64,000 nucleotides of DNA, taken from positions 10,049,730-10,113,729 of the forward strand of contig CAIIXF020000007.1 of NCBI GenBank assembly GCA_903813345.2. The letters run 5' to 3'. The number at the start of each line of letters is the position of its first letter. Positions within the stretch are counted from its first letter, which is position 1. Source of the DNA: Owenia fusiformis. Taxonomy: Eukaryota; Annelida; Polychaeta; Sabellida; Oweniidae. Made by a program: the position numbers and the translations under genes. The notes below the pieces were generated by a model that was given only the letters and a program-made list of their open reading frames with translations, ran no database searches and had not been told where the DNA came from. Shown here in pieces: positions 2,151 through 35,100 of the stretch.

Positions 2151-5100
2151 GTATGTCAACTTCAAGTCAGTAATTTCTAATACTAAATGGATCTTAAATT
2201 TGTATGTAGTTCATAAGTTTTAATTGTGCCACACTCTCTGTCCCTACCCCCAAGAAATAAATAAGGACCCTGTTCATTGTGCTTAATATCAATGAGATGA
2301 CATATGTTTTTGGGCATATTTATTGACCATAAATCAACTCTCAAATAATAATGATATTCAAGTGAAGGATGAATATTTTTCTACTGCAATGCAATGGTTT
2401 GCTTGCAATGGAGCTTTACTTGTCATCAGACACAAAGGCCAATTTTGTAAGAATACTTGAGACTAAAATGATAAAAGTTTAAGTATAATGAGTAAAAAAT
2501 CTAAATATTGTGGTCACATCCCACCACTCTTGCTCTCATATTTAGGTGGCGAAGGCCTTGGTCTCAGTATCATAGGGATGGGTGTTGGAGCAGAAGCCGG
2601 ATTGGAGAAACTTGGTATTTTCATCAAGACACTCACACCAGGTGGCGCTGCTGAAAGGGATGGAAGGTATGTTGTCATTAAGCACAAGCTTCCCATTCAA
2701 TCTACAAATCAATTGTTTTACAATTCTAAATTCAATGATATAGTCTGTAAATGTACACATAAATTTCTAATAGTAAGAACTACCTTGGAATTAAATTACA
2801 GTCGGGCATTATCAATGCATACAGACAAGCATTAGAAGTGATCTGTATTTTCTATTTTATGTTAAAATCAAAATAAAAGAGATGCCATAAACTATGAGAC
2901 GAGTTATTATACATGTATTTCCATAATTGTGTCACAGGATCCAGGTGAATGACCAGATAATAGAGGTTGATGGGAAGAGCCTGGTGGGTGTGACACAAGC
3001 CTACGCAGCATCTGTACTTCGTAACACAAGCGGCACAGTCAAGTTCATGATTGGTCGAGACAAGAACCCGGAACAGAGTGAAGTGGCGAGACTCATTAGC
3101 CAATCACTGGCCCAGGATAAACAGAGAGAGACTGTGAAACAACAGAGACAGGAGCAGCTGCGAAAACTACAGGAGCAGGTCAGTTTATGTACCTATGATC
3201 TCCCCGGCATTGAAACAAGTGGGTGCTGACCTATATGAGATTCTCATTTGAAATAGGATAGCACCCACTTGTTTAACAGTTATAAAACTATAGTATTTGT
3301 ATCCACTTGAAAAAAGGCTATTTGGACCAGTGTGAATGCATGTCAAAACAGTTCAAAAGAGAATTTTCTGCCACTCAAAAAAATCCTGAGAGAACCTAGT
3401 AAGAATATATGGTAGAGAGGAGTGTTCTTAAGTTAATTATCCCATCGAACTAAGTTCGGAGGGATATAGGGAACGCCTCCGTCCGTCCGTCCGTCCGTCC
3501 GTACGTACGTACGTACGTCCGTCCGTCCGTCTGTCCGTCCGTCCGTCCGGGCAATAACTCAAATACCGTTGGCCCGATTTTGTTCATATTTTGTACACAT
3601 ATACCCTATGGGGGTAGAAGTTCTGCTCGAAAGCCGTTTTTCAAAATGGCCGCTCATTTCAAAATGGCGGCCATTTTAGTGACGATTTTACAGTAATTTA
3701 GGTGCAATATGTAAAACTGTAATAGCAATATGTTTTAAATGTAAAAAAAATTATAAAGGACATTAATAATGCTACAAATGTAGATATTAAAAAGCACATG
3801 GCAGCCATCTTGAAAAATGGCGGCCTTTACTCGTCATTTTACGATTTTTGCTGTAACTCTAAAAATAGTGGAGCGATTTTGTTCATATTTGGTGTGTGAA
3901 TACTATAAGCATTGCACACTGTCTAAAGACACTTTTGGTAGAAGGCGGCCATTTTGGAAAATGGCCGCCATTTTAACGTATTTTACTCGAAAAGTAGTGG
4001 AGCGATTTTGTTCATATTTGGTATGTGAATACTATAAGCATGGCACACTGTCCTATGACACTTTTGGTAGAAGGCGGCAATTTTGAAAACAATTTTGAAA
4101 AATGGCCGCCAATTTAATGTATTTTACTATAACTCGAAAAGTAGTGGAGCGATTTTGTTCATATTTGGTATGTGAATACTATAAGCATGGCACACTGTCC
4201 TATGACACTTTTGGTAGAAGGCGGCCATATTGAAAACAATTTTGAAAAATGGCCGCCATTTTAACGTATTTTACTAATACTCGAAAAGTAGTGGAGCGAT
4301 TTTGTTCATATTTGGTATGTGAATACTATAAGCATGAAACAGTCGTCTATTTCTAATGACGCTTTTGGTAGAAGGTGGACATTTTGAAAAATAGCCGCCA
4401 TTTTAACGTATTTTACTATAACTCGAAAAGTAGTGGAGCAATTTTGTTCATATTTGATATGTGAATACTTTAAGCATGGCACATTGTCTAATAAAACTTT
4501 GGGGAGTAGTCCGCCATTTTGAAAAATGGCCACCATTTTTACGTGTGTTATTTTACAAGTATGTGTGCGATTTTTCAAAAAATTTTAGAGGTGGCTACTT
4601 AAAAGCATATTATTTCTTCTGATGACAACTTGGCTAGTGAGCAACCATTTTGAAAATGGTGGCCTTTCTGTTGTGTTGTTTTATGATATTTGCGACTCGT
4701 TTGTAAAAATGCCAGCCATATCTGTTCGATGGGATTCGCTACGCTTTGGCGTTGCCGTTGTTCTGGTTAAAACTTTTGTACTTCAAGTGTGATGACAAGA
4801 TGATATTTTGATGGTAATATTTTGAAAAACAATCGAATTGGAAAGCTCTAGTTCTTCATTGTTCTCATGCATGGGGTTCCTTTTTAGGCTGAGCGGGAAA
4901 AGGATGAGTTGGCCGAGTTGTCCAGGAAAAACCAAGAAGCTGTTCGCTTACAAGAAGTACAGGAGGCTGCTATGGCCCAGAATCCTGGGGGTCCCTCTAC
5001 AGAGGAGGTCAGTAGTTGAATATTACCCAGCTTGCATTGAGGCTTTGAGTGATTTCAGATGATAATCTTGTGCATGATTCTTAGACATGATCCTAATGCT

Positions 5101-8100
5101 CAAATAATGAGCTAAATATAAAACATATTATTTGAAAGTAGGAAAGTTTGGGGCAAGATGGGGCATGAGCAGCAGGAACAGATTATTTTTGTCTCCCTGA
5201 TAACATACATTTCTTAAACTATCCTGGCTCATTGTAATAGACTAATGTGTTGGTGCCAGTTTATTTTGAAGATTGCGTTATCAGAGGAGGCAAATAGGAC
5301 ATGTCCATCTTATCTTGCCCATGGACCATCTTGTGCCAGGTTTCCTTAGTATGTAAGTAAGCAAGGCTATAAAATAAGCCTATGCTGTTGGGAAAGGGTT
5401 AATTAAGACTAACTATGCTCAGCTGAAATAAAACTACAGCTCAGTATGTGTTGTTAAAATATGCAAATTGAAATTAAGTTGAATGATCAATACTAATATG
5501 ATAAGAGGCATGAGTTTGGACTAAAATGATTACTGTCTTAGAAGGTTCATTGGCATTTCATAGAATTTTTACATCTATACAAAGGAACAGGTTATATTTA
5601 GCTGATTTTCATATCAAATTCAATTATTTTTCATTCAAAACTCATTTCTATTTACCCAATGAAACTTCATTGAAAGTAATACTATGGTTTGATTTGTACT
5701 ACTAAATACTGTACAATTTTTGTACACTGGTGAGAGCTTTTAGTTAGTGGGTTGAATGCATGCTTTGTGCATTTTAGCCCATCCCTGCCTTACCACCAAA
5801 ACAACAACGCAACGATGCAGCTCCCATGGAGCAAGAAGTACAAGAACAATCGCATGAAACTTTAACTAACAATGCAACTGCTGTTGAACCACCTTCAGAA
5901 ACTGTAAATAGTGAAGAGAGTGTAGAAAATGTGCCTAGGACAGTTCAAGAGACTCTGACTGAAGACATACAGCCCCAGGCTGTATCCCAATCTAGGACTA
6001 TACCTGAGATTCATACTGAACACACTAAGCCTGGTATACAGGCTGAAGTTAGTGAACCCATTAAGGCTAAAGAGGACCTCGAGTTATTACATGATGAACA
6101 GGATGTCAAAAAGAAATATAGGATTTCTAATGAATATGCTGATCTTTCTTCGCCAGAGGAGGGGACAAATAATGCATACATATCCGAGCCTTTTGATCTC
6201 CCAGAAAGCAGTGGTAGTGAGGATGTTAGCCCAGAGATGGATGCACAGGTTTTATTTATTAAACTGAAGGAGGTAGGGGTACTGAGCATGCTGGGTTACA
6301 CCCTGGTGTGCCAGGTTGCAGAACTTCTTTTCGTAAAGGCCGTGTGGATGGTTGGCATGAGAATTGAAAAATAAATGCATCAAAAGTCTTAATTAATATA
6401 TTTCTATTAAGAAGAGAAAGGTTCATTCAATTCACATCACATAATAGAAAAGATGGATTGACAATGGTACCGGTCACTTAATAGCTTCGTTTTGGAGTTT
6501 TTTTTGTCAAAATGCTTCGTAGTGAAGCAGTTATGCCTGCTGCGTTACTTAACTAAACCAAAAAAGTTCCACAATCAACTATTTTGATAATTTAGAATTT
6601 TCAATCCAAAATGATTAAACTCAAGGGTTTCAGGGTTTCATACTTATACTCACTACAGTATATGCTTATTCTTATGACCTCCATTCACATGACCTTTATT
6701 TATTTCTGACAAAACTGATTAGTTTGTATCTATATACAAACACTTATAGGATTTATGCCTGAATCAAAGATATTATTTTAGGTTTTTATTTAGAGATTGA
6801 TTAAATTATAGTGTGATATTTAAGAAATGAATAAGTTTATAAATAAGAGCTATGCCAATATTATTACTAAAATTGTGTGATTATCAAGCATGGGACTGAT
6901 GATCAATGAATGAGAGAACCCATTTACAGAATGAAATCAAACAATGTCCTACATTCATTGACCTTCAGTCTTAAAGGTGAAGCAAACACCCCATTGTATT
7001 TGCTTCACCATGAGGTTAGTCTTGCATCAAGTCTTAATCCCATCTTCTCTATTCCTCCAATTGTCAAGGAGCATAGTAGTATGGGTAATTTCCTCCCTTA
7101 CTCTTTTGGTGAGGGAGTAACATTGATCCCTCCACACACACTCCATCAAATAGTTCAACCTCCAGTGGGATAGAACTTAGAAGAGTGAGAAATACTCCTT
7201 GCCCTACTTTTATCTCCTCCTCTTACCTCCAAATAAGGATTGGAATAGGGGGGGGGGACAGACTTGATTCAAGACTAACATGAGGGTTATGATTAAGTTG
7301 GCTACTAACTGCTTGCATGTGGTGCTTTTGTGGTATACAGGCGCAGTACAAGAATGCTGTCTCAGAGGCAGAATTAGCCAAAGTACGAGCCAAAGTAAGT
7401 GGACTGGCCAGATTTTACAACCTGCCTTAAAGTTATGCGAATTTATGGCCATCAATTAGTTCGTTGAAAATTGAATTTTTTACTTATTCTTATTTTATTC
7501 TGTATTTGAAAAGAAGATTCTATTAACTGTCCCATTTCAAATATTCAGAGTAAAAATTCCAGAGCTAGGTTTATCACTTTTGCTAATTTTATCAAAAATG
7601 CAAGGTATTTCGTCAAAATCCATCCCATGGTGACATTCTGTATTCCCTTTCATAATGCCTGAGCATATAAAATTCAAAGTAACGATAACTGATACATCAT
7701 TAGCTGTTAACGAATGGCCTGAAATGACTAACTAATGCGTTAGTTTTATAACATATCACCCCATGAGTGTAGAACTAATATTGCATGGCATGTTCCCTAT
7801 TAGATGATTCTCCTTGAGAACTCGGAAGCGCAGAAACGCCACTATGAGAAACGTTGCGAGGAAATGGCTAAGAGGCTCCGGGAAACTGACGAAAAACTAA
7901 CTCAGGCACAGAAAGAAATAGCTGGATATCAGGTTTGTCCCGTAAAGAATTCATATATGCATCTTTATGAAAATAGTATGAATGTGTACAATGTATTTAC
8001 AGCCTATTATATCAGAATGCTCTAATAAAATTGTGGGAGATTATACGAAAAATATTTTTTGAGCATTAAATCCTCACATTGAAGCAGGAAACATGAAGAA

Positions 8101-11100
8101 ATAATGAAGTCTAGTTTTTTTGTTTTTTTTTTTATTTCTGAGATTTAGGTTCCACTCGTCCTTTTTTAGATGTCTTATTGTTCAAAGTGAAACCTTGTAT
8201 TAAATATATGTTCAATTTATGTTCATGATATTCAATTTATGTTCATGATGAAGTGTTTTATATTAGAGGTTTAACTTCATTTTTGCCAACCCTGAGATTG
8301 TCTCATTCCTCAAGGATTATACAGAGTCAAATACATGTCATTGTAAATGTATTTTTATTACTCATAAAAAAGAGCATCTTCTAGTTTTTGGAATGTTTTA
8401 TCTAAATTGCTTTTTTGCATGGTCTGGCATGAAAAAAGTCTGCACCAAATACTAATAATGTTTTTTTTGTTTATTATCCCTGCAGAATAGTGTGAGTAAA
8501 GTTGTCAAGTAAACACGCACAATCACTTATAACTTATAAATAATGTCTATGCCTTCAACACTTGTATACATTTTTGTGGAATTCTAAATATACTTAATTA
8601 TTTTTCAAATTTGTGTCCGTTATATTGATAATACAAAAATCACAAATATCTTCTTGTACAAAAATTATTCTTTTAGTTCGTCCTAACAATTAATGTCTGT
8701 AGTCTTTTGAGAAAAAAATTCACAATGTTGCTCTTTCACCAGATACTCTAGTATACGTATTTTGGTTGCTCTACAACCTGTTGATTCTAATTCTGTATTC
8801 ACAAATTCAAGTATTTGATGTTGATTGTTTTGTGCCTATAATATTGTCTTTTTGTGTGTCTGTCTTATGAAATTGTTAGAGATTTTTTTCTATTTGCCAC
8901 ACTGCACACCTTGTTCAAGTTTTCTCATTATTAGTCACATCAAGAATTTTATAAAACTTGTTTATTTGTACTGCACATCAGAAAATAATGTAGATGTCCT
9001 GGAGTATAACACTTATACATTTTCTGTTGACAACCATGATATTTATAAATGTTTGCTATTTGTCAAAATATAATTTCTAAATTTTGCTTTCATTTTGTTC
9101 GTAATAAGTTGCAATATATTCTTTAAATGATTTTACAAAAACCTTTTTTTCTGACATCTGAAGCAATGTTACATCATGGCCCTCATCAATATCTTCATGA
9201 GTTATAAGACTTCGGAAAATTAAATCATTTTCACCACTTGGTCTCAAATCATTAACATGAATCCAGCAATGGTGTGTTCCTGTTTTGTTTGTCCACGCTT
9301 TACACCTTGTGCACAATGCAAATGCAATGTATTATTGGATTTAGGATCTGCTGGAGGGCTCTCAGGGAGAATACATTGAGCTAGAACGCAAACTGAAGTC
9401 AGACTATGGCACTGTGGAGAGGAAGTACACAAAAGCAAAGAAAATAATCAAAGAATACCAGAAACGGTAGGTACTTGTCATATTATAGTGGGGTATTGGG
9501 TATTCAGAACACTTCTCTGCATAAAAATTCAGTTAAACGAGGTTGTATTTAATTCAGCATTTATTTTCAATATTTGTATCATTTAAGAAAATGTTTTGAT
9601 TCTTTTGTTTTGTACCATGTTGTTTAGATTGATATTTACAACTTATCTAACCATTGATATATTTTCATTTTATTCTGTTGCAGGGAGAAAGAACTGAGTG
9701 AAGCAACTTTACAGCAAACAGAGACAGGTCAACAGTATGAGACAGTTGTTGACTCCTTGAAAGATAGGGTGGGTTTATATACAGCCTTTGTGCATATGGT
9801 TCACTGAACATGCAGGCTCCTCATCATGAGAAGTATATTCAAATATAAAGGCTCCATTGCGTACATGTATTATAATGCCTACAGGGGGCTGTTGCCATTT
9901 GGTACCTTATTTCATATAGTCCAACCCTAGTACATGCATGAACATGTATCATCGGTGTTACCACATTGTTTAAATAATAAAGACTATTGCAATTAAAAGC
10001 ACACAACCTATATTCATTGTTTTGCATTTTGAAGCATTGTCATTGAACAACTTAAATTCACCAATCACATGCACTGTTCATGTATTTTTCCACATGTTTT
10101 GTGACATGCATTGCCTATTGAATGACTGAATCCACGAGACACATTCACTAATTATTTATTTGAGTTTTGTCACATACACTGACTCTTGAATTACCTGTAA
10201 ATCTAACCACCATTTGAAATATTGTTGTATTCATGTGTGATTGCAGATCCAACAGCTGGAGAAGGACTTAGCAGAGGCACAGAGGGCAGCTGGCCTGCCT
10301 ATCCTCATCCCCACAGACCAAACCCCCAAGACACTGCCCCACATCAAACCTATCGCTCCAAGTAAGTTGATTTATTTTGACAAACACGTTTTATACTCCA
10401 GTGGCACGCCAAAATGTTACTTATTACATAGCATTGTTACTCATTTCATATTTCAGTTGCCTTGATAATGTGACACTATAATTTCATATTATTGATTTAA
10501 CTCATTGTATTTCAATTGCCTTGGTAATGTGACAGTATTATGTCATAAACTTGATCTATTTCATTGTATTTCAGTTGCCTTGGCATCATCACTACCTCCA
10601 GCAGACATATCAGATGTCTCCTCAGATGATGAGGATGTCTCCACACCAGGTGAGCAACCATAAGCCAGTTTTGATCACAGGTTTTTTAACTGGGGTAGAT
10701 AATCAGTGAATAAAGGATATCCCCTTTGTCATGTAAAGAAAAATTGACAAATCCAGAAACAGATAGAATACATTGTCTCATTATAAATATTGAAATATTG
10801 ACGAAATCATAAACAGAGAGAGAACATTTGTGACCACTTCCCATCGATGGGAGTAAAAAACTGTGTCTCCAAATACAAGCCTTTAATTATCCCATCGAAC
10901 GAAGTTCGGAGGGATATAGGGAACGCCTCCGTCCGTCCGTACGTACGTACGTCCGTCCGTCCGTACGTACGTCCGTCCGTCCGTACGTCCGTCCGTCCGT
11001 CCGTCCGTACGTACGTCCGTCCGTCCGTCCGTCCGGGCAATAACTCAAATACCGTTGGCCCGATTTTGTTCATATTTTGTACACATATACCCTATGGAAG

Positions 11101-14100: not shown

Positions 14101-17100
14101 AGCCTTATCGTATTGTATTTTAACTAAATCAAGTCAGACGTGCACAGTTTATTCGACAAAGAAGGCTTTCTGATTTTAATATTAACCGGTGATTACAAAC
14201 GTTTGATGATCACCTTTACTTGAGTGAATTGCCAAAGTGCGCGATCGGCGATCGGCGGAGCTTCTGTTTGCATACATGAAAAATCAAAATAAAGAAGGGC
14301 CATAATAATGGGCAATCTTAGGCCTACATGAAGATAAAAAAGACGATATGATTCAATGATATGATTTAACACAACGTATACGTAATTAAATCTCGGCACA
14401 TGAAAAAAACAAAAGTTTACTTTTAACTTACATCAATACTTAAAATGGCAGGTAGATGAGGCGATGATTTAATTAATAGTTATTAGTTATTTTGCGATCG
14501 GCCGCGGTTGATTTAGCACGTTATTTACGGTCTTTGTACTACGCCTATAGACGTCCTTGATTCTAAAAGACTGTGGGACGCTAATTTTAGTGGAAGTAAT
14601 TCATACCGATTGACTTATATTCAAAATCAACTAACTACATTTGATTTAGCAAGGCTAAACCCCATTATCCTGGGAATCGTCTTTATCTTTGTCGGATCAT
14701 TCAGGTGAGAAATTTATGACGTAATTCAATTGTTCTCTCCGCCAACGGATGGAATTGGATGCCGGTCTTTTCTCAAAATACAAGGTACTTTGACTGAATA
14801 CTGTGACTACAATTTTTGTAATCTTTTTACCAAAAACTAACATAAGCATAATCATATTCCAGATAAAATAATGTGGAAATTTTAAAAAAATCTATCGAGC
14901 CGTTTTTCTGTAAATTGAGATCTCCCGAGGGTAAAGTAAGTTTATGGTTTTCCCATAGGATTACATGTTAAATATGACAATATAAGCAGCATAGGCTCCT
15001 CAAAAATACGATCTTTGAACCTTACTTACTATATCTCAACTTATTTTTTTCTGTTTAAAATTTCTACAGCATATGTACACCACTTGTTTACATACACTGT
15101 GCGATTTTCAGGAAATTCTATCGAGGATATTTTTTGGCTGACGGACCAGGTCCCACCTTAAGCATGGCACATTGTCTAATAAGACTTTGGGGAGTAGTCA
15201 GCCATTTTGAAAAATGGCCACCATTTTTATGTGTGTTACTTTACAAGTATGTGTGCGATTTTTCAAAAATTTTAGAGGTGGCTACTTAAAAGCATATTAT
15301 TTCTTCTGATGGCAACTTGGCTAGTGAGCAACCATTTTGAAAATGGTGGCCTTTCTGGTGTGTTGTTTTATGATATTTGCTATTTGTTTGTAAAAATGCC
15401 AGCCATTTCTGTTCGATGGGATTCGCTACGCTTTGGCGTTGCCGTTGTTCTGGTTTGATTTCATTTCTAGAAATAATACACATTTTAAGAGATACTTTTA
15501 GAAATGCACATGTAAATTAAGAGGTTAAAAGAAAATGCAATTATACATGTTCATTAATTTCATATGGATATATATGTTGCACCACTGTTAATGCATGCGT
15601 GAACGTTATTCTCACAATTTTAGAAGTTATCAAAACTTACATAGAGGTGCAAAAGGTTGAGCCACCAGTCTCCCAGTCTCTTCAGAACCACAATGAAACA
15701 TTCCCTTCAGAAATAACTGACACTAAGTTATTAGACACATCATTAAATAAATCAAAGGCTCGTCTTGCGTCATCAGGGGCTATGGGGGCACGACGCCCTC
15801 CGTCAAAGTTGGCAGGACAAGTGAGTCGGAGTCACCTGGTGTCGAAGATGTGTACTCACAACAAGTCATACTGGCATAAAAGCAATTCCAGGCACTCTTA
15901 TTGTATTAAATATACGATATACTGAATTATATATACACTGTATATATACAAAATATACTGGTATTTGCATGATTTTTCACTTCATATGTACATCTTTCAA
16001 CTTCTTTTGAAGTACAGTGAGTGCTCAGTTGAGATTTTGCTTTTATCACTCTGTATGACTTGACGTGATAGCAGCGTCACACCAAATATAATTACGATAT
16101 TCATGTTCTGTATGTTGTACTTTATTTTCACAGAGAATCCACGTTGTATACTGAAGACCAGTTCAAACTTCGTAAAGCAGGTTGGTGGTGCTAGGTTGTC
16201 ACTTAGTACAAGAATCACTCAATAGATGTCAGAACTGAATTACCTTTAAAGAAATGAAATACAGTAAAACATGTCTTGATTGAACAGATTTGACCAACTA
16301 AAAGTATCCACACCAAAAGTATTAACGAGTACTGACAAAAGGGGAATGAGTGCAATATCCCAAAAATGTTATTTCATAAAAGTATTTGACTTAAAGGAAT
16401 TTACCTTAGTTAGGTGTTCACATGCTCATGTTTTACTGTATTGTATAATGTTCACCTCAGGGTTGAAATCTAGTGAGTGGTCTTTAAGGGACACACCTTG
16501 CATGTTTGTTCTTATTAATTCTGTAATATCATGTATGGGATGAAGTGCAATTTAACAGCAAGTCTGCAGTCTGTTCACAGTGTTGGGAGTTTCACATTCT
16601 TTAACTCATTTGTCTGGGTTTTTTTAAATCAAGTTTTTTCAAAATCTGAAATCAATTTTATAAAGAAGGTTTGTGGAAGTAATTAGTCGAGGTACTCTTT
16701 GCATGTTATATACTTCTAGTTACCAATTACCAGACAAATGAGTTCAGCCTTGCAAAAGTGTTTTCTTATTCAGCAACAGCGTTTTCTTATTCAGCAACAG
16801 TGTTTTCTTATACAGTTTTCAAGGTTCAATGGCAAACACATGAAGACAATGCCTGTTAAAAATAGCACCCTGGGCAGTTCTATCATTCATTCTGCATTGA
16901 TCTTGAATTTTGCAGAATTGATTTTCAAGGCATATTGATATATTCAATGGATGCTGAAACACTATTGCAAGGTTTTTTCAATAATGACTTGTTACTTGCA
17001 TGATATTAATAAACCACAGTTGTTCCTATTATGACTACGTAAACATGCATGGAGTTCTGCATTGCCCTAAGGCTGAACCAGACAAGGTAGGCTCACATGA

Positions 17101-20100
17101 TTTAATACCATATTTGTTAAGTTAGCTACTACCAGTCATTAGCTACTACTGTACCGTTAGAATGATACGCTTGGTTCATCAAGCTTTGTATTTGCCAATG
17201 TGATCCTTCCAAACATAGAGGATCAACCATCTCATTACAAAAATCCTAAGGATTTTGAGTTGTAGAGATCAAAGAATGACAAATAGGCTTATGATTCATA
17301 CACAGTTCTACTTACAAGTTTAAAGCATGTTTTATGATGGATTAACCACAGATAGGTTATCCCTGTGTTCTTAATTTGGCTGTTTAGAGTGTGTATTGCA
17401 TTGTATCAAGTAACAACCATCCACCCTGCTAAGCCCCTAGTCAGACCCTAGCTTCACCTACAGGAATACCTAACATTTCATTCATGTATATAAAGCAGTT
17501 CATCAAAGCTGTACTAATCCAAAGTACATGTTAACTTATTAATTGAGCATGGATTGAATTTTTTTAAAGAATGTATGCTACAAATGATAACCAAGTACTA
17601 AAACGCATGTGTTTATGAATCTAAATATTAGCATGAATATTCAAGCAAAATTTATACAAGATTTTTGTTAATTTATGTTTCTTTTTTTCTCTTTATGAAT
17701 TTTATTAACTTAATTAATTTACGGGTAAATAACTTTGAATCCTTAATTAATTTATGTAAATTACTTCCAAAATCACAAACCAAAAACTCTTTCTTTTCAA
17801 AGCATGTGTAGTTGGACACTGAAAAGTAGTTTTAATATTTCGCAGTAATTCAGAAATGATATTTGAAATGCACATGTTGAAATAGAGTTTAATCACATGT
17901 AACAAGATTAATAATGAAATGCATTTTTGCATACTGCATCAAATTATGTTCCACAATGATTATTTAAATTGGTTGGATGGTTAATAATTGAGGTATGATC
18001 TTCATACACTGTTAGTTTTTGAGTAATATATATGTACAGTGTACGATGTATACAAAAGAGGGAGCATTCAGAGAGGCACTTTGTTGACCATTATCTTCAG
18101 ATACTGATTATGAAATCATTAAACCAAGGCTGAATTAGGTTCTAATTACCAATTCACATTTTTGAATAACTGCGTGTTGTAATCCGCACTCTATCACATT
18201 CCTAATAATATCTGATATCAACCACCCATAATGATTTCTGCACTTTTCTGTTTTTTCATTCTACCAGTAAGTTTAATGATTTTTGATCAGATGCAAATTC
18301 TGTGCTCCTGTTTAAAACAAATGGTGGTTCCTAAAACACCTATTAATTTCACAATAACTTCTACACTATATACATATAATACTCATAGCTAATGGTGTTA
18401 TAAGATGATGCATCATTTGATACAATGCTATGCACTCTTACAGCCTCAGAAAAAGCGGAAAAAGATCGAAGCACCCAAGAAATCTGTCTCAAAACCCTTG
18501 GGTAAAATTCACGACCCTGTACCAAAACCTGGGTTTAAGGATAAGGCTGCTAAAAAAGGTCTTAGTATTAAAGTCGATGATGAATCTTCAAAGACTACTA
18601 GTGGTAGACCCCTCACTAAACTAGAGGAACTCAAACGTGAAATTGGATTAGAAAATCCACCAAGCACTCCACCATCTGCAAAAGAGACCAAGGACACTAT
18701 GTCTGCAATAAGAGCAGCTTTCAAAGAAATTGAAGAACTTGAAAAGGGTGACAGAAGCAAAGGAAAAAGAACAAGTAATGTCTTGGATAAGTTTGGAGGT
18801 GAACCAGAGGTTAAGAAAGAGAAGAAGAAATTGAATTTTGAAGACTTGTGTAAACAATTTCCACTTGATCAATCCAGGAGAAGCGTAAGTCCTGAGCCAA
18901 AATTTATATCAGATGAGAGAAAAGCCTGGATGAAAAACAAGACACCTATCAAAGATAAAAACCTTGATAAATCTATATCTTGTGAAAATATTAAAGATGT
19001 AGTGACTAAAATGGATAATAAGAAACCGAATGAACCCGCAGGGAAAAAACCTGCATGGATAGAAGACAAAACACAAACCAAAGCTTTATCTTCTGAAAAT
19101 ATTAAAGAAGCTGTAAATAAAACAGACAATGTAAAACCAGATACCTCGCCAGAGAGGAAGGCAGATACTCCTCCAAGAAAACAGAAAGCTTATGGCAGAA
19201 CCTCCAGCCTTATTGACACATCAACTGCAAAGAAAGGATTTGGTAGATCAACAAGTCTGATAGAAAATAGTGAAAATGACCTGTATGATCCTGAGTCCCC
19301 TTCCAGGAAGAAAAGAAATAGTTTATTTGATTCTGTATTTGGTAGATTCCAAAAAGATAAGTCAGTCGAGAAAGACAGCATTAAAACTCCTTTGAAAGAT
19401 AGACAATCTCTTAAAGATGAATCCCAAGAATTGATAGATAAAAAATCTCAGAAGGAGCAACCAAAAGCAGATGAATTAACTGAAAATAAAGTTTCCAAAG
19501 TAGCTGAACCAAAATCTCCAAAGTCACCAACAAGTGCAAAACTTGGGTGGCTGACTGACAGATTTAAACCTAAAAATGAAGTTGCTCCTGCCCCTTTGGT
19601 AGATAAATATAAGGATCCCAAATCAGAGAAAGATGTTAGCAAATCTCCAGAAATGGTGAAGAAAAATATGGACTGGACTGGGAAGAACAATAAAAAAACA
19701 GAAGAACCCATTGAAGTTTCAGATGTATCAAAGAAGAACATAGAAGGACCACCAACTAAAAAGCTTGGAAATATAACTGATAAATTTGATAAACAATCAA
19801 CTGACAATGAGCAAAACATAAAGAAATCAGATACAGATAAAAGAATGGATTTAAAAGAAGTTACTGGTACAAAAGACGTTAGTAAACCACCACCTAAAAA
19901 ACTTAGTGGTTTAATGGACAGGTTTCAGTCAGATGAGAAAAAGATTAAAGATTCAGTAAAAGACAAAAAGAGATCTTGGGGAAGTAAATCTGAGCAAAGT
20001 GAAAAGAAACAACCAGAAGCTCCAATGACCAGTATTGACAAAACTAAACAAGTAAAAGTAGATGACAAAAAGCAACCTGATAAAGATGGTATCATTGAGG

Positions 20101-23100
20101 TTGTGGACAAAAGGCCAGCTTGGATGAGAAATCTTGACAGAAGGGAGCCTAAGCAACTTCCATATGCAAGTCCAGCCCCTAAGAGAAAAGCAGAATCTAT
20201 GACTGCTATGAAATCAAAAGAAGATGAAGTGATGAAGGAGAAAGATAAACAATTGGGAGAAAGCATTGAGAATTTATCAAAAGAATTGGAAGATATAAAG
20301 AAAGAGAAACCAAAATTAGGAGGACTTATGAATCGATTTGAAATTGATACTTCAAAATCCAAAAGTGAAAAACTGAATAAGAAAGCAGAACCAAATAAAA
20401 AGTTTGGAGGAATTGCTGAAAAGTTTAACAAATCTCAGCCCAAAGATGATTTGAGGGTGTCAGCTGAATCCCTTGATAAGATCAAGGATAAAGTCATTCC
20501 AAAGAAAGAAGATGATGCTAAGAAGTTAGGAGAAATCAGCTCTAAGTTTGACAAATCAGTAGGAAAAAATGAAAGTAAAGAAGAGCTTAAACCAAAGAAA
20601 TTTGGAGGATTAGCTAGCAGGTTTGAAAGTCCAGCCACTGACAAAACAGACAATGTGAAAACAAGTAAAAAGAAAGATGACTTTATACAAAAGAAGTTTG
20701 GAGGTTTGGCTAGTAAGTTTGAAACTCCAGCCCCTGAAAAAATAGACAATATAAAAGCAGAAAGTGACAAGAAGGATGACCTCAAACAAAAGAAATTTGG
20801 AGGTTTGGCTAGTAAGTTTGAAACTCCAACCCCTGCAAAAACAGACAATGTTAAAACAAGTGAAAAGAAAGATGAACCCAAACAAAATAAATTTGGAGGT
20901 TTGGCTAGTAAGTTTGAAACTCCAACCCCTGCAAAAACAGATAATGTTAAAACAAGTGAAAAGAAAGATGAACCCAAACAAAAGAAATTTGGAGGTTTGG
21001 CTAGTAAGTTTGAAACTCCAGCCCCTGAAAAAACAGACACAGTAAAAACAAGTGAAAAGAAAGATGACCCTAACCAAAAGAAATTTGGAGGTTTGGCTAG
21101 TAAGTTTGAAATCTCAGCCACTGAAAAGACAGACAATGTTAAAACTACAGCTGAAAAGAAAGATGAACCTAAACAAAAGAAATTTGGAGGTTTGGCAAGT
21201 AAGTTTGAAACTCCAGTCCCTAAAAAAGCAGACAATATGAAAACTACAATTGAAAAGAAAGATGAGCCTAAACAAAAGAAATTTGGAGGTTTGGCTGGTA
21301 AGTTTGAAACTCCCGTTCTTGAAAAGGCAGATAATGCTAAAACAAGTGAGAAGAAAGATGAACCTAAACAAAAGAAATTTGGAGGTTTGGCTAGTAAGTT
21401 TGAAACTCAGGCCCCTGAAAAGACAGACAATGTGAAAACAAGTGAAAAGAAAGATGAGCCTAAACAAAAGAAATTTGGAGGTTTGGCAAGTAAGTTTGAA
21501 ACTCCAGTCCCTGAAAAGACAGACAATGTGAAAACAAGTGAAAAGAAAGATGAGCCTAAACAAAAGAAATTTGGAGGTTTGGCTAGTAGGTTTGAAACCA
21601 AAACCACAGAAAAAGTAGATGTGAAAGATTCAAAAAGATTTGGAGGATTAGCGGATAAGTTTGAAGCTAAAAAGAAAACAGATCCAAAAACAGAAATTAA
21701 GCAAAAAACAAAAGAGCCAAGTGACTCTGTAAAAACCTTTTCTGAGAAATCATCTAAAAAAGACCTGGATGTATCATCTATTGACAGTAAATTGAATGTG
21801 ACTGATACAAAGTCAAAAGACAGTAAATCAATGGCAGTAGATAAAAATGATAAATCAACTAAACCAGTAGAAACATTGAAGGAAGTATCTGAAATAAAAC
21901 ATGATAATATAAAGACAACATTACTGAAAAAAGATGAAGAAAAGAAAAGTGTAAACCCTTCAGCAGATAATGTTAATAAAGACACTAAGAAATTGGGCTC
22001 TTTGATGGGCAGATTTGAGAAGCAAACAGAACCTGCAAAACTCAAACCATGGCAGAAATCTAGCATTAAACGAGACATAAACACAAAGCTTAATGTTGAA
22101 AAGGTTTCAGATCAACAAAAGGTTGAACAACCATCAAGTCCTACAAAAAAATTAAAATCAGCCGAAGTTGATTTTGGGAAAGTTGAAGACAATCAGAAAG
22201 ACAGTAAAAAGTCAACATTAGGGCTTCTGACTGGAAAGTTTGATAAAGCAAAATCTGAGACTGTTGAAATAAAGATTGACAAACCAGATTTGTCTAAAGA
22301 TGAAAAAGCTGAAATTGAAACCATTGATGCAACGAAAGTATGGAATCTGAAACCGTTAGACGTTCAGAAAGCTAAGGATAATAGGAATGATCTTAAACCA
22401 ATTTCCCCTAAGGCTTCAGGTTCTCCCAGATCACCTGGAGGAGGAAGCATAAGTTCAATTATGGACAGATTTCAACAAAAATCTGATGTTAAAGTCCAGT
22501 TAAAAGGTGCCAAACCAAAAGCAGTACATGCAACACAGGAGACTGTGGAAATACCTTTAGTAAAAGCATTAAGCAAAGACAGTCCAGTTATTCAAACTTC
22601 TACAGCAATTGGTGGCACGTCAAAGCCACCTTCCACACCCACTACTAATGTGCATACCCAGTCAATGGCAACTGGAGGAATGTCTAACACAGAGGCTACT
22701 GCATCTGGGGGACCTGTCAATGTAGAGCTTCATATGCAAGGCAAAAAGGGAGGGTCAGCTAAAATTGTTGACACTGCGAAAGGCCCTGTTGGTATAAAAT
22801 TAAAGATAGGAAGTGGAGGAGTGTCTGTCATGGAAAGTAACAGAGAGATTAAATTCTCATCATCAGGGTCTGTTGTTTTATCATCTTCAGGGGCTACAGT
22901 TTTGACTTCAGGGGGTACTCCTCTGCAACCAGGTTCTCCTGGGATTACAATAAAGTTTGGTGGGAAGACTCCTCCTGTTGTTAAGTCAAATGCACCTTGG
23001 AAATACAGACTATGAAAATAATGTATTATAAATATAACTGTTTAGGAAATTCCTTAAACACCTTAGTACTCTGTGGGGTTCATTACAAGAAATGAATTAA

Positions 23101-26100
23101 TACGTCGAATTGTCTTGTCATGTATAAACTTGTTCATATATAATGTATATATGTGAATGGTGACAAATAACAGAGCATATTTGGAATTTTCGGTAAAACT
23201 TTTCGAACATATCATGTTTTAGATTTTTCAAATTTATTTTGTACAGTAAAACCTGTCCGATGGAATACCTCTCTGTAGGGAAAACCTATGAACAAGGAAT
23301 GATTTTCAAAAGAACCGAATATTTTTTCATTGACTTACATGTTAACGGACACTCTCTGTAGGGAAAACCTGTGAACAGGGAACAAGGAACACTATTTTGG
23401 GGCAAATTATGAAAATTCACCTGTGAACAAGGAATATGGAATATTGGTGACACTGTATATTCCATTATTTTTCAGAGGTGTGAAAGTTTTAAGCCAATAT
23501 CTGAATATAGAAAGCTTGGATTAATATGATTGAGATTAAGATAAGCCAATTGTTAACATGATGTAGCATCCCACCCACTGTTAATTACCCTGATTTATTT
23601 TAAAACTAGTACTAATCTGTTTGTTACTCATTATCATGACACTAATTCTTCCCTTCAAAAAACCTTCATAAACCGTATCAAATCAGTTGTGATAATCTAG
23701 AGACTGACACAATTGTTTTATGGAGATAACAGATAGTAACTACATGGTCATGTTGAGCCAAATCTCTTTAAATCTTTTACTGGTCCAACTTCTAGATTAT
23801 CAATGATATAAAATGGGGGTGATGAAACTTGAAATTTAGTTCTTAGCAATATATCTCTACACATCATATCAATAATTACATCAACTAGACATCATCAGAC
23901 ACTAGAAGCAGCTAAAATCAACATGGGGAGAACGTAACCAAGTATGGAGCCGGCATTTGTACAATTAATCAATATATATACAAATATGCTTATTCGACAA
24001 GTTTGAGTTTGCTGAAAGTGCGGCCCCTCTCTATAGGGAAAACCTCTGAACAAGGAAACTTTCCTTCAGTCCCAAGAGCATTCCCTGTTCGCAGGTTTTA
24101 CTGTATATATAGCGCCATAATACTAAGCTATGATATTATTTATTGAAGCAATATTACTTTTGCTTATTGTATAAACTTTCGCTGAGCTGTATATTATAAA
24201 TGGCTGGATGTTTGAAACTTGTCAATTTTTTGAAGTGTAAAATTATCAATTATGCTTTTAAAAGACAATATAATTTGTCATCTCAAGCAGTAAGAATAAA
24301 CAAGAAACTATTAGAAAGTACATGTATGTTATAGTTATTATATTTAGTGTCATGTTGTACCGATTTGGTACTTATTAGAAGGCACTGTTGGTGAACAATA
24401 GAAAGTATGAGAAGTTAGCTCTTGGAAAGGACAAGTCTCAGTTTGAAGAACAGTCTCCTGGGCTAATAATTTTGTTATGAAAAATAAAGAAATATCACTC
24501 AAATTAAATTAAGAATATTCAAAAGATGACATTTAAATCTACAAGATGTATAAATATCAAAATTGTCTGAAGCAGGCGTAACGTGCAGTAGACCGATTCA
24601 ATAAAAAAACAAGTCTCGATTTAGAGAAAGAAGTTAATCAGTGTATTGCACTAATAATTTTTCTATGAAAAATATAGAAATATCACCCAAATTAAATCAT
24701 GGATATTCAAAAGAGGAGGATCTACAAGATGTAAAAATATTAACATGCAGTAGACTTTGTTCTCCATACTGAGACTAGTCTTTTATTTTGAGAGCAAAAG
24801 TGTGACCATTATTCGATTGCAAGGAAATAGCTCCTGTCATATTATTATTTTGAAATCAACGATTGAATTGTCACTATGTCAGAAATATCACAACAATATG
24901 CACCCTTTATCTTTCCTATGTTATTCTACATTGTTGAATCTACCCTTGAGATTTCAGACAATTGAGATAAGATATTAATAGTTCTCTATAGGGTGTCTAC
25001 AAAACAAAGACCTAAGACCTAAGACCTACAAAACTAAGACCCCCCACGTTATAAAACTAAGACCCTGTTATAAAACTAAGACCCCCCATGTAATAAAACT
25101 AAGACCCTGTTATAAAACTAAGACCCCCCACGTTATAAAACTAAGACCCTGTTATAAAACTAAGACCCCCCACGTTATAAAACTAAGACCCTGTTATAAA
25201 ACTAAGACCCCCCACGTTATAAAACTAAGACCCTGTTATAAAACTAAGACCCCCCACGTTATAAAACTAAGACCCTGTTATAAAACTAAGACCCCCACGT
25301 TATAAAACTGAGACCCTGTTATAAAACTAAGACCCCCCACGTAATAAAACTAAGACCCTGTTATAAAACTAAGACCCCCCACGTTATAAAACTAAGACCC
25401 TGTTATAAAACTAAGACCCCCCACGTTATAAAACTAAGACCCTGTTATAAAACTAAGACCCCCACGTTATAAAACTAAGACCCTGTTATAAAACTAAGAC
25501 CCCCCACATTATAAAACTAAGACCCTGTTATAAAACTAAGACCCCCCACGTTATAAAACTAAGACCCTGTTATAAAACTAAGACCCCCCACGTTATAAAA
25601 CTAAGACCCTGTTATAAAACTAAGACCCCCCACGTTATAAAACTAAGACCCTGTTATAAAACTAAGACCCCCCACGTTATAAAACTAAGACCCCCCACGT
25701 TATAAAACTAAGACCCTGTTATAAAACTAAGACCCCCCACGTTATAAAACTAAGACCCTGTTATAAAACTAAGACCCCCCACGTAATAAAACTAAGACCC
25801 TGTTATAAAACTAAGACCCCCCACGTTATAAAACTAAGACCCTGTTATAAAACTAAGACCCCCCACGTTATAAAACTAAGACCCCCCACGTTATAAAACT
25901 AAGACCCCCCACGTTATAAAACTAAGACCCTGTTATAAAACTAAGACCCCCCACGTTATAAAACTAAGACCCTGTTATAAAACTAAGACCCCCCACGTTA
26001 CAAAACTAAGACCCTGTAATAAAACTAAGACCCCCCACGTTATAAAACTAAGACCCTGTTATAAAACTAAGACCCCCCACGTTATAAAACTAAGACCCTG

Positions 26101-29100
26101 TTATAAAACTAAGACCCCCCACGTTATAAAACTAAGACCCTGTTATAAAACTAAGACCCCCCACGTAATAAAACTAAGACCCTGTTATAAAACTAAGACC
26201 CCCCACGTTATAAAACTAAGACCCTGTTATAAAACTAAGACCCCCCACGTTATAAAACTAAGACCCTGTTATAAAACTAAGACCCACCACGTTATAAAAC
26301 TAAGACCCTGTTATAAAACTAAGACCCCCCACGTTATAAAACTAAGACCCTGTTATAAAACTAAGACCCCCCACGTTATAAAACTAAGACCCTGTTATAA
26401 GAATCAGTCACCGTGCCTTGCTCTGCTCGCCACAAGGTAGTCTTGCCTCTGGGCCTTGTGTTCCCTAGTAACATACAGATTCTACAAAAGATAGTCTTGC
26501 TTCTGGTCCTTGTGTTCCCTTCTAATATACAGATTCTCCCCACTAACATAAAGATTCTACAAAAGGTAGTCTTGCTTCTGGTCCTTGTGTTCCCTTCTAA
26601 TGTACAGATTCTCCCCACTAACATAAATATTCTACAAAAGGTAGTCTTGCTTCTGGTCCTTGTGTTCCCTTCTAATATACAGATTCTCCCCACTAACATA
26701 AAGATTCTACACATGGTAGTCTTGCCTCTGGCCCTTGTTTACCCTAGTAACATACACATATGGTAGTCTTGCCACTGACCCTTGTTTTCCCTAGTAACAT
26801 GGTGGTTCAAGATTTCAGACCCATCTTTCTCACATAGATTGCTGAACTTATTTTAGTTAAGAATTCCTAATAGAATTAAGAATTAATAGCTGAAACTGTT
26901 CTGTTTGTCCTAGCAAACAATATCCCAATATGCATTTGAAATTCATTTTTGTCTATATGTGTTGACAGTCTGTGATGTCATCATCAATCATCACAATGGG
27001 AATTAGGTGAATTCTATCTGTGACAGTGAGATTATCTATGATGTCACATAGTAGTTTGATTTCTAAGAAATGTGGCAGAGTTCTATCTATGACAGAGATG
27101 CTTTGTGATGTCATCATGAATTATCTCGTTTCCATTGTGATGATTGATGATGTCATCAGAGTACTTTGTGATGTCATCGTGAATTACCTCATTTCTATTG
27201 TGATGATTGATGATGACATCACAGACTGTCAACAAATAGACAGAAGAAGTTGAGAAGTTGAACTACAAGTTGGAAAATTGTTTGCTAGGGCAAAACAACT
27301 CAGTTTCAGCTAATAATTCTTAATTCTATTAGGAATTCTTAACTAACAACGGTTCAGCAATCTGTGCCAGAATGATGGGTCTTAAATCTTGAACTACCAT
27401 TAAACATCACTTCCAAAACAATACCAGCATAAAATGGAGTATCTCTTTTTATGCTCAGCATAAAATGGGACATCACTTTTTATGCCAGCATAAAATGGGA
27501 TATCACTTTTTATGCCAGCATAAAATGGGACATCACTTTTTATGCCGGGCATTAAAAGTGATATAAAAAAAAAATTACTTTTTTTAAAAATCAACAAATC
27601 CGGGTATTTGTTACAGTCCATTTTTATATAATCCGCTGTTGTATGTTACTGGGGAACACAAGGCCCAGAGGCAAGACTACCTTGTGGCGAGCAGAGCAAG
27701 GCACGGTGACTGATTCTTATAGCAGGGTCTTAGTTTTATAATGTGGGAGGTCTTAGTTTTATAACAGGGTCTTAGTTTTATAACGTGGGGGGTCTTAGTT
27801 TTATAACAGGGTCTTAGTTTTATAACGTGGGGGGTCTTAGTTTTATAACAGGGTCTTAGTTTTATAACGTGGGGGGTCTTAGTTTTATAACAGGGTCTTA
27901 GTTTTATAACGTGGGGGGTCTTAGTTTTATAACAGGGTCTTAGTTTTATAACGTGGGGGGTCTTAGTTTTATAACGTGGGGGGTCTTAGTTTTATAACGT
28001 GGGGGGTCTTAGTTTTATAACAGGGTCTTAGTTTTATAACGTGGGGGGTCTTAGTTTTATAACAGGGTCTTAGTTTTATTACGTGGGGGGTCTTAGTTTT
28101 ATAACAGGATCTTAGTTTTATAACGTGGGGGGTCTTAGTTTTATAACAGGGTCTTAGTTTAATAACGTGGGGGGTCTTAGTTTTATAACGTGGGGGGTCT
28201 TAGTTTTATAACAGGGTCTTAGTTTTATTACGTGGGGGGTCTTAGTTTTATAACAGGGTCTTAGTTTTATAACGTGGGGGGTCTTAGTTTTATAACAGGG
28301 TCTTAGTTTTATAACGTGGGGGGTCTTAGTTTTATAACAGGGTCTTAGTTTTATAACGTGGGGGGTCTTAGTTTTATAACAGGGTCTTAGTTTTATAACG
28401 TGGGGGGTCTTAGTTTTAAAACAGGGTCTTAGTTTTATAACGTGGGGGGTCTTAGTTTTATAACAGGGTCTTAGTTTTATAACGTGGGTGGTCTTAGTTT
28501 TATAACAGGGTCTTAGTTTTATAACGTGGGGGGTCTTAGTTTTATAACAGGGTCTTAGTTTTATAACGTGGGGGGTCTTAGTTTTATAACAGGGTCTTAG
28601 TTTTATAATGTGGGGGGTCTTAGTTTTATAACAGGGTCTTAGTTTTATTACGTGGGGGGTCTTAGTTTTATAACAGGGTCTTAGTTTTATAACGTGGGGG
28701 GTCTTAGTTTTATAACAGGGTCTTAGTTTTATAACGTGGGGGGTCTTAGTTTTATAACAGGGTCTTAGTTTTATAACGTGGGTGGTCTTAGTTTTATAAC
28801 AGGGTCTTAGTTTTATAACGTGGGGGGTCTTAGTTTTGTAGGTCTTAGGTCTTAGGTCTTTGTTTTGTAGACACCCGTTCTCTATAGATTCTATCTGTTG
28901 TCAGTTTTTCTATCATAATCTCTATCAATTTACAGAGTTAGGACACCATACTCAAAGGAGTATATTTTTTAGGCTTTTGCCGTTGATACTAAATATGACA
29001 ATGTACATGAACGGATTGATTTGAATTCTTTGGCAATTTAAGTTATACTGAGAAACAGTTTCCTTCTTCAATCTGCCAAATGAACAATGGAACTTCTATT

Positions 29101-32100: not shown

Positions 32101-35100
32101 CCTGGAGCATGGGGCTTAGCAGCACATTGGCTTTCTATGCTTACAGTGAAATCACAGTCATAAAGAAGCCAAGTACAAAGAAAACAAGGGCCCCAGCCCC
32201 TCCAAAAACAAACCCTACTCCAGACATGACAGTCAAATCTGAACCACCCATGGAAGTTACGACTACCTCTGACAAAGTTACTTCTAATTCTGCCATTAAT
32301 GTGCAGACTGTCAAATCTGAAAATCTTTCGCAAAATACTACTACCTCTTCCAAGTCTGACCCTGATGTGCAAACTGTAGTCCCCAAATCAAAACCAGGCC
32401 CTCTGGTAGTAGAGTCTGCTGCTATCGTAGCAACATCTGCTGCTGTTGTAGCTTCCCTTAATGACAGTATTGAGTCCACCCCTCCCCCTGTTCCATCTAG
32501 TCCACCCCCTCCCCTTGACCTTCAAGAATCCTCTACAACTGCCTCCCCAGTGCAGGTGAATGGAGATGTGGCTGAGGAAAGGTAATCAATGAATAGCCTG
32601 TCTTGCATGACTTTTACATAAGTCTGTCATTCATTTTTGTGCATGCTTCTTTTATGGATTTTTTCTATCAGTTTAGTTCAGATTATTATTAAGTTTGCAT
32701 GGCATGAATTTTATTTAATTTTTGTTGCATTTATTGTTTATTTTTGCTCCATATATTGCTTGGATTAAGTACCAGATTAAGGAGACTCTGAGTGTTTATT
32801 TGAGTGTTTTATATCTAATATTGTAAATTATTTACAGATACATGCCTGACGATCTTAGCGAGACGTCAAGTCTCTCATCAACAACTTCTTTCGAACCTTC
32901 CCAGCATTCCTATGAACCATCAAAGCCTCTCTTTCAAAATATGGACTCTGAGATCCCATCTCAGGTTCCAGGTGACGATGTTGAGGACTCAGAAGGTGGG
33001 ATTATGCTGGTCTCCTCCAAAACAATTGGTGACTCTGGTTCAAGTATGTATATTGCAGTTATTATAGATTTCTAGGGGTTGTTTATTCTTGGACTCGTGC
33101 CATTATTCCAAGTGCACTGTATGGAAAGGTTCTTTTTACCACATAAAAATGTTCATATGGATATCCCTTTATTGAATAAGCCTCTGAGTTAATGCACTTC
33201 AGTATAATGTGGGGTTCCACTCATTTATCCATTTGTAGATGCAAAAAGAACACCAGTCTCACACACAGCTCAAACCGTACCGAATATTTTAAATTTCAAC
33301 TATCTTTTATTACATTGGCAAATTTATTTTTGTCGGAGTTGTGCATCAGCCTGGGCATCTGAGAAAAATTATGTTTCTACAAGTGCTTAAATAAAACAAG
33401 AGGAATAAAACCAGCAGTTTGAAAATTTGTTTGTCATTTGAAATATTGTCCAAATCCTTGAAACTCTGAGTCATTTTTTGGGTCAAAATACAGACAAAGT
33501 TACCTCCAGCTAATGTATGGTGACAAATATAAGGTATGTGAAATACAAAAGGTGAAAATATAGCTGATGGAATCATCTTAAGCCTTGTCAAGTTTTGTAT
33601 GTGATGAACTTCATTTTGTTATCAAACATTGGATGGACAGTTTGTTTTTATACCTCAACTTTAATAAGACAAACCATGATGGCTTTGGGATATATTGTAT
33701 TATAAAATGCACAGTTATAGTTTATTGTACTTTTTGTTAGATAATTGCAGAGGCACACACACTCCCACCAAATATATTTTAAAAGTTGTATATGTCACTG
33801 CCTTATCTTTCTATGCATAGATTCTCATAAGATGGATTTATCAGAATAAGGGTCAGATTTATCTCAGATTTATTTTCATGTATGACCGCACACTTATTAA
33901 ATTGATAACCCTCTGATAGCAAAAACAAACTTCGAACTTTTGACATGGCATATTATGTTTAGCTTGCATTCATACAAGGCAAGACAATAACAGCATCAAA
34001 AAAGTTGTTATTTTTGGACTACACCCTCATATTATTGTCCTTAGAAAACATGGCACATCATTTTATGAGAACTATGCATTGAGGAGTCATAACAATAACT
34101 ACAACACATAACCCTTTGTGACCCCATTTCCTCTCTCTCTAGCTTTCTTGCCAAGTCGACCCAAGTTGCCCCGTATATCTGGCATCTCAAAAGGAAGTTC
34201 CCAAGATTCAGGGGGAATCACACTCATGGGATACAAGCCTATAGACACAGGATACAATTTTACAAATAAAGGTATGTTGTGTTGAACTAATGTGTGTTTA
34301 TGGGTTTTGGGTAAAGGTTTTATATACAAGAATTTATAAGTTAAGGTTTTTGATATGTTTTTTGCTACTTTAATTCACTTTTTATTTTTTAGCTTTAACA
34401 ATTTATGACTACCCCAAAATGTCAATTTTTGTAGTTTTTTCAATGAGGGCCATTTTTTTTAATTTATTTTTTTTTATTAAAACATAATAACATTTTTAAT
34501 GGAATATTTGGCTTAGAGGATTTTATATATCATACTGACTTTTACACATTCATCTTAACCAGATAATCTTTAGACTTTAGCATCAATAAATTCAAGAAAC
34601 ACAACACCTGAGCGTCAGACCTTAAACTTACAGATAAACATTATTATTTTTTATTGAATCACAAAACAATAATTAGAATGCAAACTCAGTGCAATAGAAA
34701 TTGAAGATTATTGATTGACTACTTTAAATAAAGTTTCAACTATAAATCTTTTGTGAGAGTGTTCATTTTGTCAAACTGTTTCATTTTTTATGGAAATATT
34801 TGAAAAGTTGTTTATCCTAATGATGTGCCATAGTTCAATCTACAAAACCTTTAATTCATTGAGTCTATCATACCGTTAAACAGGAAGCTTTTTTTGTTTA
34901 CATATCTTATCAAAACGTTGATTTGTTTGAACATAATAAGGTTAGAGGAAGAAAAAAGTCAAGGGTAAAAAAACAATAAAATTTCAGCATTTTTTACATG
35001 CCCTTTCAAAACAAAAATCATAAAACTTGCTAAAAAGTGATGTTAATTAAAAAAGTTGTACAATTAAATACTTGATTTTGTTTCATATACAGATTGATAC

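Follow-up and report, generated by a model that had tools for sequence, protein, structure and literature searches.

Background

The SFM is a short linear F-actin-binding motif, V(P1)xxL(P4)xxxF(P8)E(P9), the definition of which is based on structures of ITPKA and Lifeact bound to actin; it forms a single alpha-helix when bound, and the proteins that carry it include Lifeact/ABP140 and ITPKA/F-tractin (PMC13364712). Here we describe a neurabin gene of the annelid Owenia fusiformis in which a very long exon, supported as an alternative last exon of the gene, encodes a tail with about 20 motifs of the same spacing. The exon lies at positions 18444-23015 of a 64,000-nucleotide stretch of contig CAIIXF020000007.1 (positions 10,049,730 to 10,113,729 of the forward strand; assembly GCA_903813345.2), which is referred to below as the window and whose numbering is used throughout.

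Mutation of P1 and P8 of the SFM abolished co-localization with actin, and P4 and P9 tune the affinity, which is approximately 2 µM for Lifeact and ITPKA and 6-12 µM for five other SFM peptides; Val was tested at P1, and Val, Leu and Ile are named as interchangeable (PMC13364712). Repeats of the SFM are mentioned in PLEKHG3, SORBS1/2 and SSH2, and the authors favour a de novo origin of the motif over exon shuffling and domain duplication (PMC13364712). The same paper names PPP1R9A (neurabin-1) among the alignments in a figure legend, although the corresponding list in section 8 omits it; its references 67 (neurabin I) and 68 (spinophilin), as well as reference 73 on the Xin repeats, fall within the range (53-73) cited for SFM proteins tested by truncation (PMC13364712).

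The Owenia tail shares with the published SFM proteins the pattern hydrophobic-xx-Leu/Ile-xxx-Phe-mostly acidic, the spacing and the disordered context, and shares with ITPKA the Gly at P2; it differs in that a single exon encodes about 20 copies, of which 11 are in strict tandem, and in that P1 is mostly Phe and never Val. Long serial arrays of short F-actin-binding repeats are found in the Xin proteins (XIRP1/2), the consensus of which has Val and then Phe-Glu-Thr, spaced as in the SFM. Given the place of the Xin-repeat paper in the above citation range, Xin is probably an earlier array of SFMs, although this precedent is unconfirmed; with such long arrays in Xin proteins, the serial repetition of SFMs is in itself probably no novelty. 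The Pfam model of the Xin repeat did not match the tail (E up to 1) or its repeat block (E up to 10), which makes membership of that family less likely and leaves the mechanistic likeness unaffected; the tail repeats also differ from Xin repeats in carrying Leu/Ile at P4 and in sitting on neurabin. The giant exons of neuronal ankyrins, which are inserted within the protein, resemble the tail exon in that each is one very long alternatively spliced exon adding disorder; however, the tail exon would end the protein and bears a recognizable motif array.

Neurabin-1 and spinophilin (PPP1R9A/B) have the same N-terminal SFM, pre-PDZ region, PDZ domain, coiled coil and downstream SAM exons as the Owenia gene. 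Our set of long neurabins comprised the 120 listed of 398 matches to a pre-PDZ query, Owenia included, and within this set an SFM array in place of the SAM domain was seen in the Owenia isoform only. In the literature, as judged from search listings, we found no description of such a neurabin tail. As far as our searches show, the new elements are the presence of an SFM array on a neurabin and its location on an alternative last exon. A first-pass annotation of the window, made from the DNA letters, had put the tail forward as a candidate for an undescribed system; this has to be amended in that the class of motif has been in print since 2026, with PPP1R9A among the names mentioned (PMC13364712).

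The tail exon and its connection to neurabin

On the forward strand, the frame from 18393 to 23012 runs uninterrupted through 1540 codons up to a TGA at 23013-23015. An acceptor (...cttacag|CCT) at 18444 leaves 1523 codons up to this stop, whereas the second-longest stop-to-stop frame listed for the window is 323 aa in length and antisense to the tail repeat. The predicted exon (18444-23015, + strand), which encodes 1523 residues and a stop, was delimited by the frame, the acceptor and, for the first 775 tail residues, the public protein P0001. The tail is rich in Lys (K 20.2%, S 9.7%, E 8.3% and D 7.9%), with a mass of 168.8 kDa, a pI of 9.6 and a net charge of +97, and the whole tail has a single match in its own genome (31 candidates scored).

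P0001, a 1958-aa database record entitled "unnamed protein product, partial [Owenia fusiformis]", already joins neurabin to the tail; its tail portion is 100% identical to the predicted tail, and its upstream part runs through neurabin exons. The protein maps in order to one chromosome, with an N-terminal exon approximately 22 kb before the window, and its matches at other loci are weaker and lie in the PDZ region. The exon path leads from 10577-10649 through 16134-16180 into the tail, giving the junction 16180|18444. P0001 ends at 20768, within the tandem block of motif repeats and away from any splice site, as might happen when a short-read transcript assembly breaks in repeats. The gene set of the Owenia genome paper was built with RNA-seq data, and 31,678 of 31,903 transcripts are RNA-supported, a figure that describes the set as a whole (PMC9977687). 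No second row named Owenia was present among the 120 listed of 398 matches to the pre-PDZ query, some rows of which are unnamed.

The exons at 15645-15820 and 16134-16180 both start in phase 1 and finish in phase 0; either may therefore precede the tail, whereas splicing one to the other would break the frame. The first-pass annotation had described an uninterrupted frame with an acceptor and its own stop, in phase with the preceding neurabin exon, and each of these features was found here, the acceptor phase in fact suiting two upstream exons. The particular junction that it proposed, 15820|18444, was not confirmed; the phases are compatible, but the only public model uses 16180|18444. Its view of the exon as an alternative last exon of neurabin is upheld by P0001 as regards the joining of neurabin to the tail, and has to be amended as regards the entry, which in this model is through 16134-16180 and not from 15820.

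The motif array

The tail was scanned with the strict pattern [VILMF]xx[LIM]xxxF[EDQN], and a relaxed count also allowed K at the last position (P9). The pattern scan found 20 strict copies, and 22 copies when K was allowed at P9, between 18699 and 22475 on the + strand. The first bases of P1 are 18699, 19542, 19764, 19902, 20316, 20403, 20526, 20601, 20697, 20796 and 20892 for copies 1-11 and 20988, 21084, 21183, 21282, 21378, 21474, 21570, 21639, 21993, 22218 and 22449 for copies 12-22; the copies at 18699 and 19542 have K at P9 and hence fall outside the strict 20. Pattern scan and repeat finding placed 11 copies in tandem units of 32-33 residues, with a consensus ending in (x)EKKDEPKQ, at 20601-21596 (+ strand), where Tandem Repeats Finder reported a period of 96 and 10.6 copies (20572-21598). 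The linkers between the motifs of this block are 23-24 residues long, and further copies are dispersed on either side. The earlier count of about 22 copies, 11 of them in tandem, was thus accurate.

In 5000 shuffles of the tail, the mean number of strict copies was 0.233 and the maximum was 3, compared with the 20 observed. After removal of the tandem block, nine copies remained in 1187 residues, compared with a shuffle mean of 0.13 and a maximum of 3. When 30 motif spacings were tested on the tail, the SFM spacing gave 20 matches, two others gave 4 and 1, and the remaining 27 gave none. The motif density was 13.1 per 1000 aa in the tail; beyond residue 250 of the other 119 long neurabins there were four matches in 189,449 residues (0.021 per 1000 aa), with at most two in any one protein. 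A control set dominated by MUPP1 (118 rows, P0003-P0120, among the 120 listed of 2982 matches to a PDZ-containing query, mostly multi-PDZ proteins) gave four matches in 243,960 residues (0.016 per 1000 aa).

The ratio of the proportions of nonsynonymous and synonymous differences (pN/pS) among the 11 tandem units was 0.15 in P1-P9, compared with 0.41 and 0.64 in the flanking stretches of 11 residues on the N-terminal and C-terminal sides, respectively. When nine-codon windows (n=25) were slid over the tandem units, the two lowest pN/pS values, 0.12 and 0.15, fell on the motif, which is the most constrained part of these units. For the 11 dispersed copies, the pN/pS was 0.53 against flanks of 1.11 and 1.02, a weak difference because these copies are saturated and their flanks are non-homologous.

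Relationship of the repeated motif to the SFM

In its spacing, the motif noticed in the first-pass annotation, [KR][LF]Gx[LI]xx[KR]F[EDQ], is identical to the SFM (VxxLxxxFE). Among the 22 copies, P4 is L in 17 and I in five, P8 is F in all, and P9 is E in 14, D in three, Q in two, N in one and K in two. The ITPKA motif, VGELRLLFE (PDB 9gob, 9hm9 and 9qgk), has at P2 a Gly that it shares with 19 of the 22. In an AlphaFold2 model of a free 36-residue motif peptide, a four-residue helix was predicted over P4-P7 (LASK), with a mean predicted local distance difference test (pLDDT) score of 72 for the block.

Pfam searches of the whole tail (E up to 1) and of the repeat block (E up to 10) detected no actin-binding repeat, including WH2/beta-thymosin, nebulin and cortactin repeats. 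Matches to DUF2205, IcmW and SseC in the tail were below the cut-offs of these families and were taken as chance. A PDB sequence search with the tail returned just two RNA-polymerase chains (E 0.75 and 0.82), and a search with Lifeact returned designed proteins only. Judged by its sequence, the array is most likely made up of SFMs that bind F-actin. The earlier suggestion of short binding motifs on a disordered tether, with actin, PP1 (protein phosphatase 1) or another cortical protein as the possible partner, is supported by the prediction of a largely disordered chain and, through the SFM spacing, with actin as the likeliest partner; its PP1 variant found no support.

The motif in other neurabins and the distribution of the tail

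An SFM pattern occurs within the first 250 residues of 118 of the 120 long neurabins, whereas shuffled N-termini of the same proteins gave a mean of 2.8 proteins with the pattern and a maximum of 7. The pattern is missing from P0150, which is a partial record, and from P0238. Ants, bees and moths are abundant in the set, so the 118 cases are not independent. The pattern-bearing proteins come from arthropods, molluscs, nemerteans and a brachiopod as well as from Owenia. The form VSxxxxxFQ is present in 116 of the 120. In Owenia the pattern reads IRDLKSRFQ, at residue 62 of P0001, and its Crassostrea counterpart reads VSKMKERFQ; both stand at the same distance after a Tyr. In the published account, a late de novo origin of the SFM was inferred for the proteins traced, no motif-positive orthologues of which were found in Mollusca (PMC13364712).

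A protein search with the whole tail returned P0001 only; it scored the 7985 candidates that shared the most words, so that relatives may have been displaced by sequences sharing low-complexity words. In these searches, which were not exhaustive, no second species bearing the tail was found, and no annelid besides Owenia was recognized among the listed neurabins, of which some rows are unnamed. A second shared motif, W...SSEN, was considered and dropped, as it occurs in two of the 120 neurabins only, both of them Lingula isoforms. It is found twice in the tail (residues 159-225) and at residue 467 of the Lingula proteins P0122 and P0123, and the search pattern matched none of the other 118. 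Separately, the neurabin record P0121 (Tigriopus) carries the pre-PDZ/PDZ stretch twice, apparently a duplication introduced in gene modelling or assembly.

Proposed function of the tail isoform

We consider it likely that the alternative last exon makes a multivalent F-actin-binding isoform of neurabin, which would carry PP1 and the PDZ domain along actin. In such an isoform, the SAM-containing downstream part would be replaced by a disordered, positively charged tail of approximately 169 kDa with about 20 SFMs. The isoform would still possess one SFM near the N-terminus, the pre-PDZ (PP1) region, the PDZ and the coiled coil. Each SFM may fold when it meets an actin subunit at its hydrophobic cleft. 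Weak, micromolar motifs in series, doubled if the coiled coil dimerizes, could then give a high avidity. Neighbouring subunits of one actin strand are 5.5 nm apart, a distance that the linkers of 23-24 residues could bridge. The isoform might thereby line or cross-link actin filaments in a tight yet dynamic manner, holding PP1 and PDZ cargo, and the alternative splicing would exchange the contacts made by SAM for avidity towards actin.

A more specific version is offered tentatively and is, in our judgment, doubtful as a whole: that the single ancestral actin motif of neurabin has become a dedicated actin-coating domain, in which the period of 32-33 residues allows one chain to step between subunits of a filament strand, that splicing switches neurabin from a SAM scaffold with one motif to a filament-lining PP1 carrier, and that the array, a natural multivalent Lifeact, arose by tandem duplication, independently of Xin.

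Alternative explanations

Several observations weigh against an actin-binding last exon. At P1, the 22 copies have F (13), L (7), M (1) and I (1) and never V, and the published Val/Leu/Ile equivalence accommodates 8 of the 22; Phe at P1 is not named as validated in the available text of the SFM paper (PMC13364712). Gly-Gly occupies P2-P3 in 14 copies, which disfavours a helix. The modelled 36-residue peptide has a second helix outside the motif and an overall mean pLDDT of 64, and in a 260-residue stretch AlphaFold2 predicted a helix over P4-P8 in none of the eight motifs (mean pLDDT 53). Synonymous differences between the tandem units are likewise fewest in the motif (pS 0.160, compared with 0.284 and 0.363 in the flanks), and sequence homogenization or a constraint at the DNA level may therefore account for part of the signal. 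The nearest AATAAA lies approximately 1.28 kb past the tail stop, with variant hexamers nearer, and since P0001 is partial, the 3' end of the tail is a prediction from the sequence. The frequent Phe, which is outside the published Val equivalents, the Gly-Gly pairs and the eight motif cores modelled without a helix would also suit a terminal exon of neurabin that is real but whose array binds microtubules, membranes or another protein, the SFM likeness being coincidental, and a net charge of +97 with a pI of 9.6 would suit any acidic surface. We regard such a partner as rather unlikely, because P4, P8 and mostly P9 fit the SFM, P1 is hydrophobic and the spacing is exact; moreover, Pfam detects no different binding repeat, the N-terminal SFM is nearly universal in the listed neurabins, and neurabin-1 is itself named in the SFM paper (PMC13364712).

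The lack of AATAAA within 1.2 kb of the stop, together with downstream SAM exons that are intact and conserved, would agree with a tail exon that is internal or rarely used, most transcripts reaching the SAM domain and those stopping in the tail being degraded. The 1523 open codons and the lower number of amino-acid changes in the motifs than in the linkers of the tandem units make this improbable, as does the fact that the public Owenia model includes the tail and that no other row named Owenia is among the 120 listed of 398 matches, some of them unnamed. The least probable of the alternatives, which we think very unlikely, is a separate gene with its own promoter inside a neurabin intron. 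The open frame does contain ATGs at 18405 and 18408, ahead of the acceptor, and another at tail residue 86; however, P0001 connects neurabin to the tail through the 47-base exon, the acceptor phase is right for two upstream exons, and the tail lies on the same strand with the gene order kept. An alternative last exon that endows neurabin with F-actin-binding SFMs is accordingly the reading that we prefer.

The neurabin gene around the tail exon

Matches to neurabins of other phyla run across the window in gene order, from the pre-PDZ region, the PDZ domain and the coiled coil to an exon ending in RRPPSK, the SYEPS exon and the SAM domain, and the order pre-PDZ (PDZ_5), PDZ and coiled coil is present in one gene with the tail. 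All of the following exons are on the + strand. The pre-PDZ exon (Pfam PDZ_5) at 2018-2151 matches residues 788-832 of P0001 exactly, PF17817 being detected at residues 749-819; we take this region to be the PP1 docking site of neurabin. The PDZ exons at 2545-2667 and 2936-3178 (overall 2545-3178) correspond to residues 832-952 of P0001, on which Pfam detects the PDZ domain. Exact matches to P0001 also define the post-PDZ and coiled-coil exons (4888-10649) at 4888-5007, 7804-7932, 9345-9467, 9682-9768, 10247-10360 and 10577-10649, several of which were matched by cross-species tblastn as well; the coiled coil was assigned by similarity to other neurabins. A 198-codon open stretch at 5778-6371 matches a conserved neurabin segment that is absent from P0001 and is probably an optional exon of the gene.

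The conserved RRPPSK exon at 15645-15820 was matched in tblastn by four of the five query neurabins (those of Lingula, Tubulanus, Lineus and Mytilus, and not Crassostrea P0126), and is the expected route to the SAM isoform. The 47-base exon at 16134-16180, through which the public model enters the tail, was placed by P0001. The tail exon follows 15820 and precedes the SYEPS exon, which sits near 32.9 kb and was also matched by four of the five queries. The conventional C-terminus (42479-43228; Pfam and tblastn) consists of the SAM exon at 42479-42676 and the last coding exon at 43046-43228. In the SAM exon, Pfam detects SAM_2 (E 4e-09) and SAM_1 (E 4.9e-07), and the four queries that match it leave out a Lingula isoform for which no SAM domain is listed.

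Just downstream of the tail exon are satellite arrays of a short repeat at 24982-26440 (+) and 27680-28900 (-). A Lys/Pro/Thr/Ser-rich open stretch at 32147-32581, the acceptor of which is out of phase with 15820, is possibly a further cassette exon. At the end of the window, open stretches on the + strand (59750-64000) resemble, by eye, the exons of another scaffold gene, possibly MPP/PALS1-like.

Implications

The tail offers a natural experiment in multivalency, in which near-identical copies of a motif that binds weakly when single are set at a fixed spacing on a phosphatase-targeting protein. If the isoform is made, about 20 new SFMs are added in it to the ancestral one. The findings also bear on the evolution of the SFM, for which a late de novo origin has been published; here, the N-terminal pattern is widespread in neurabins, including those of molluscs, and the array appears to have grown by tandem duplication. 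If this interpretation is true, splicing could turn a neurabin with one grip on actin into a many-grip actin binder.

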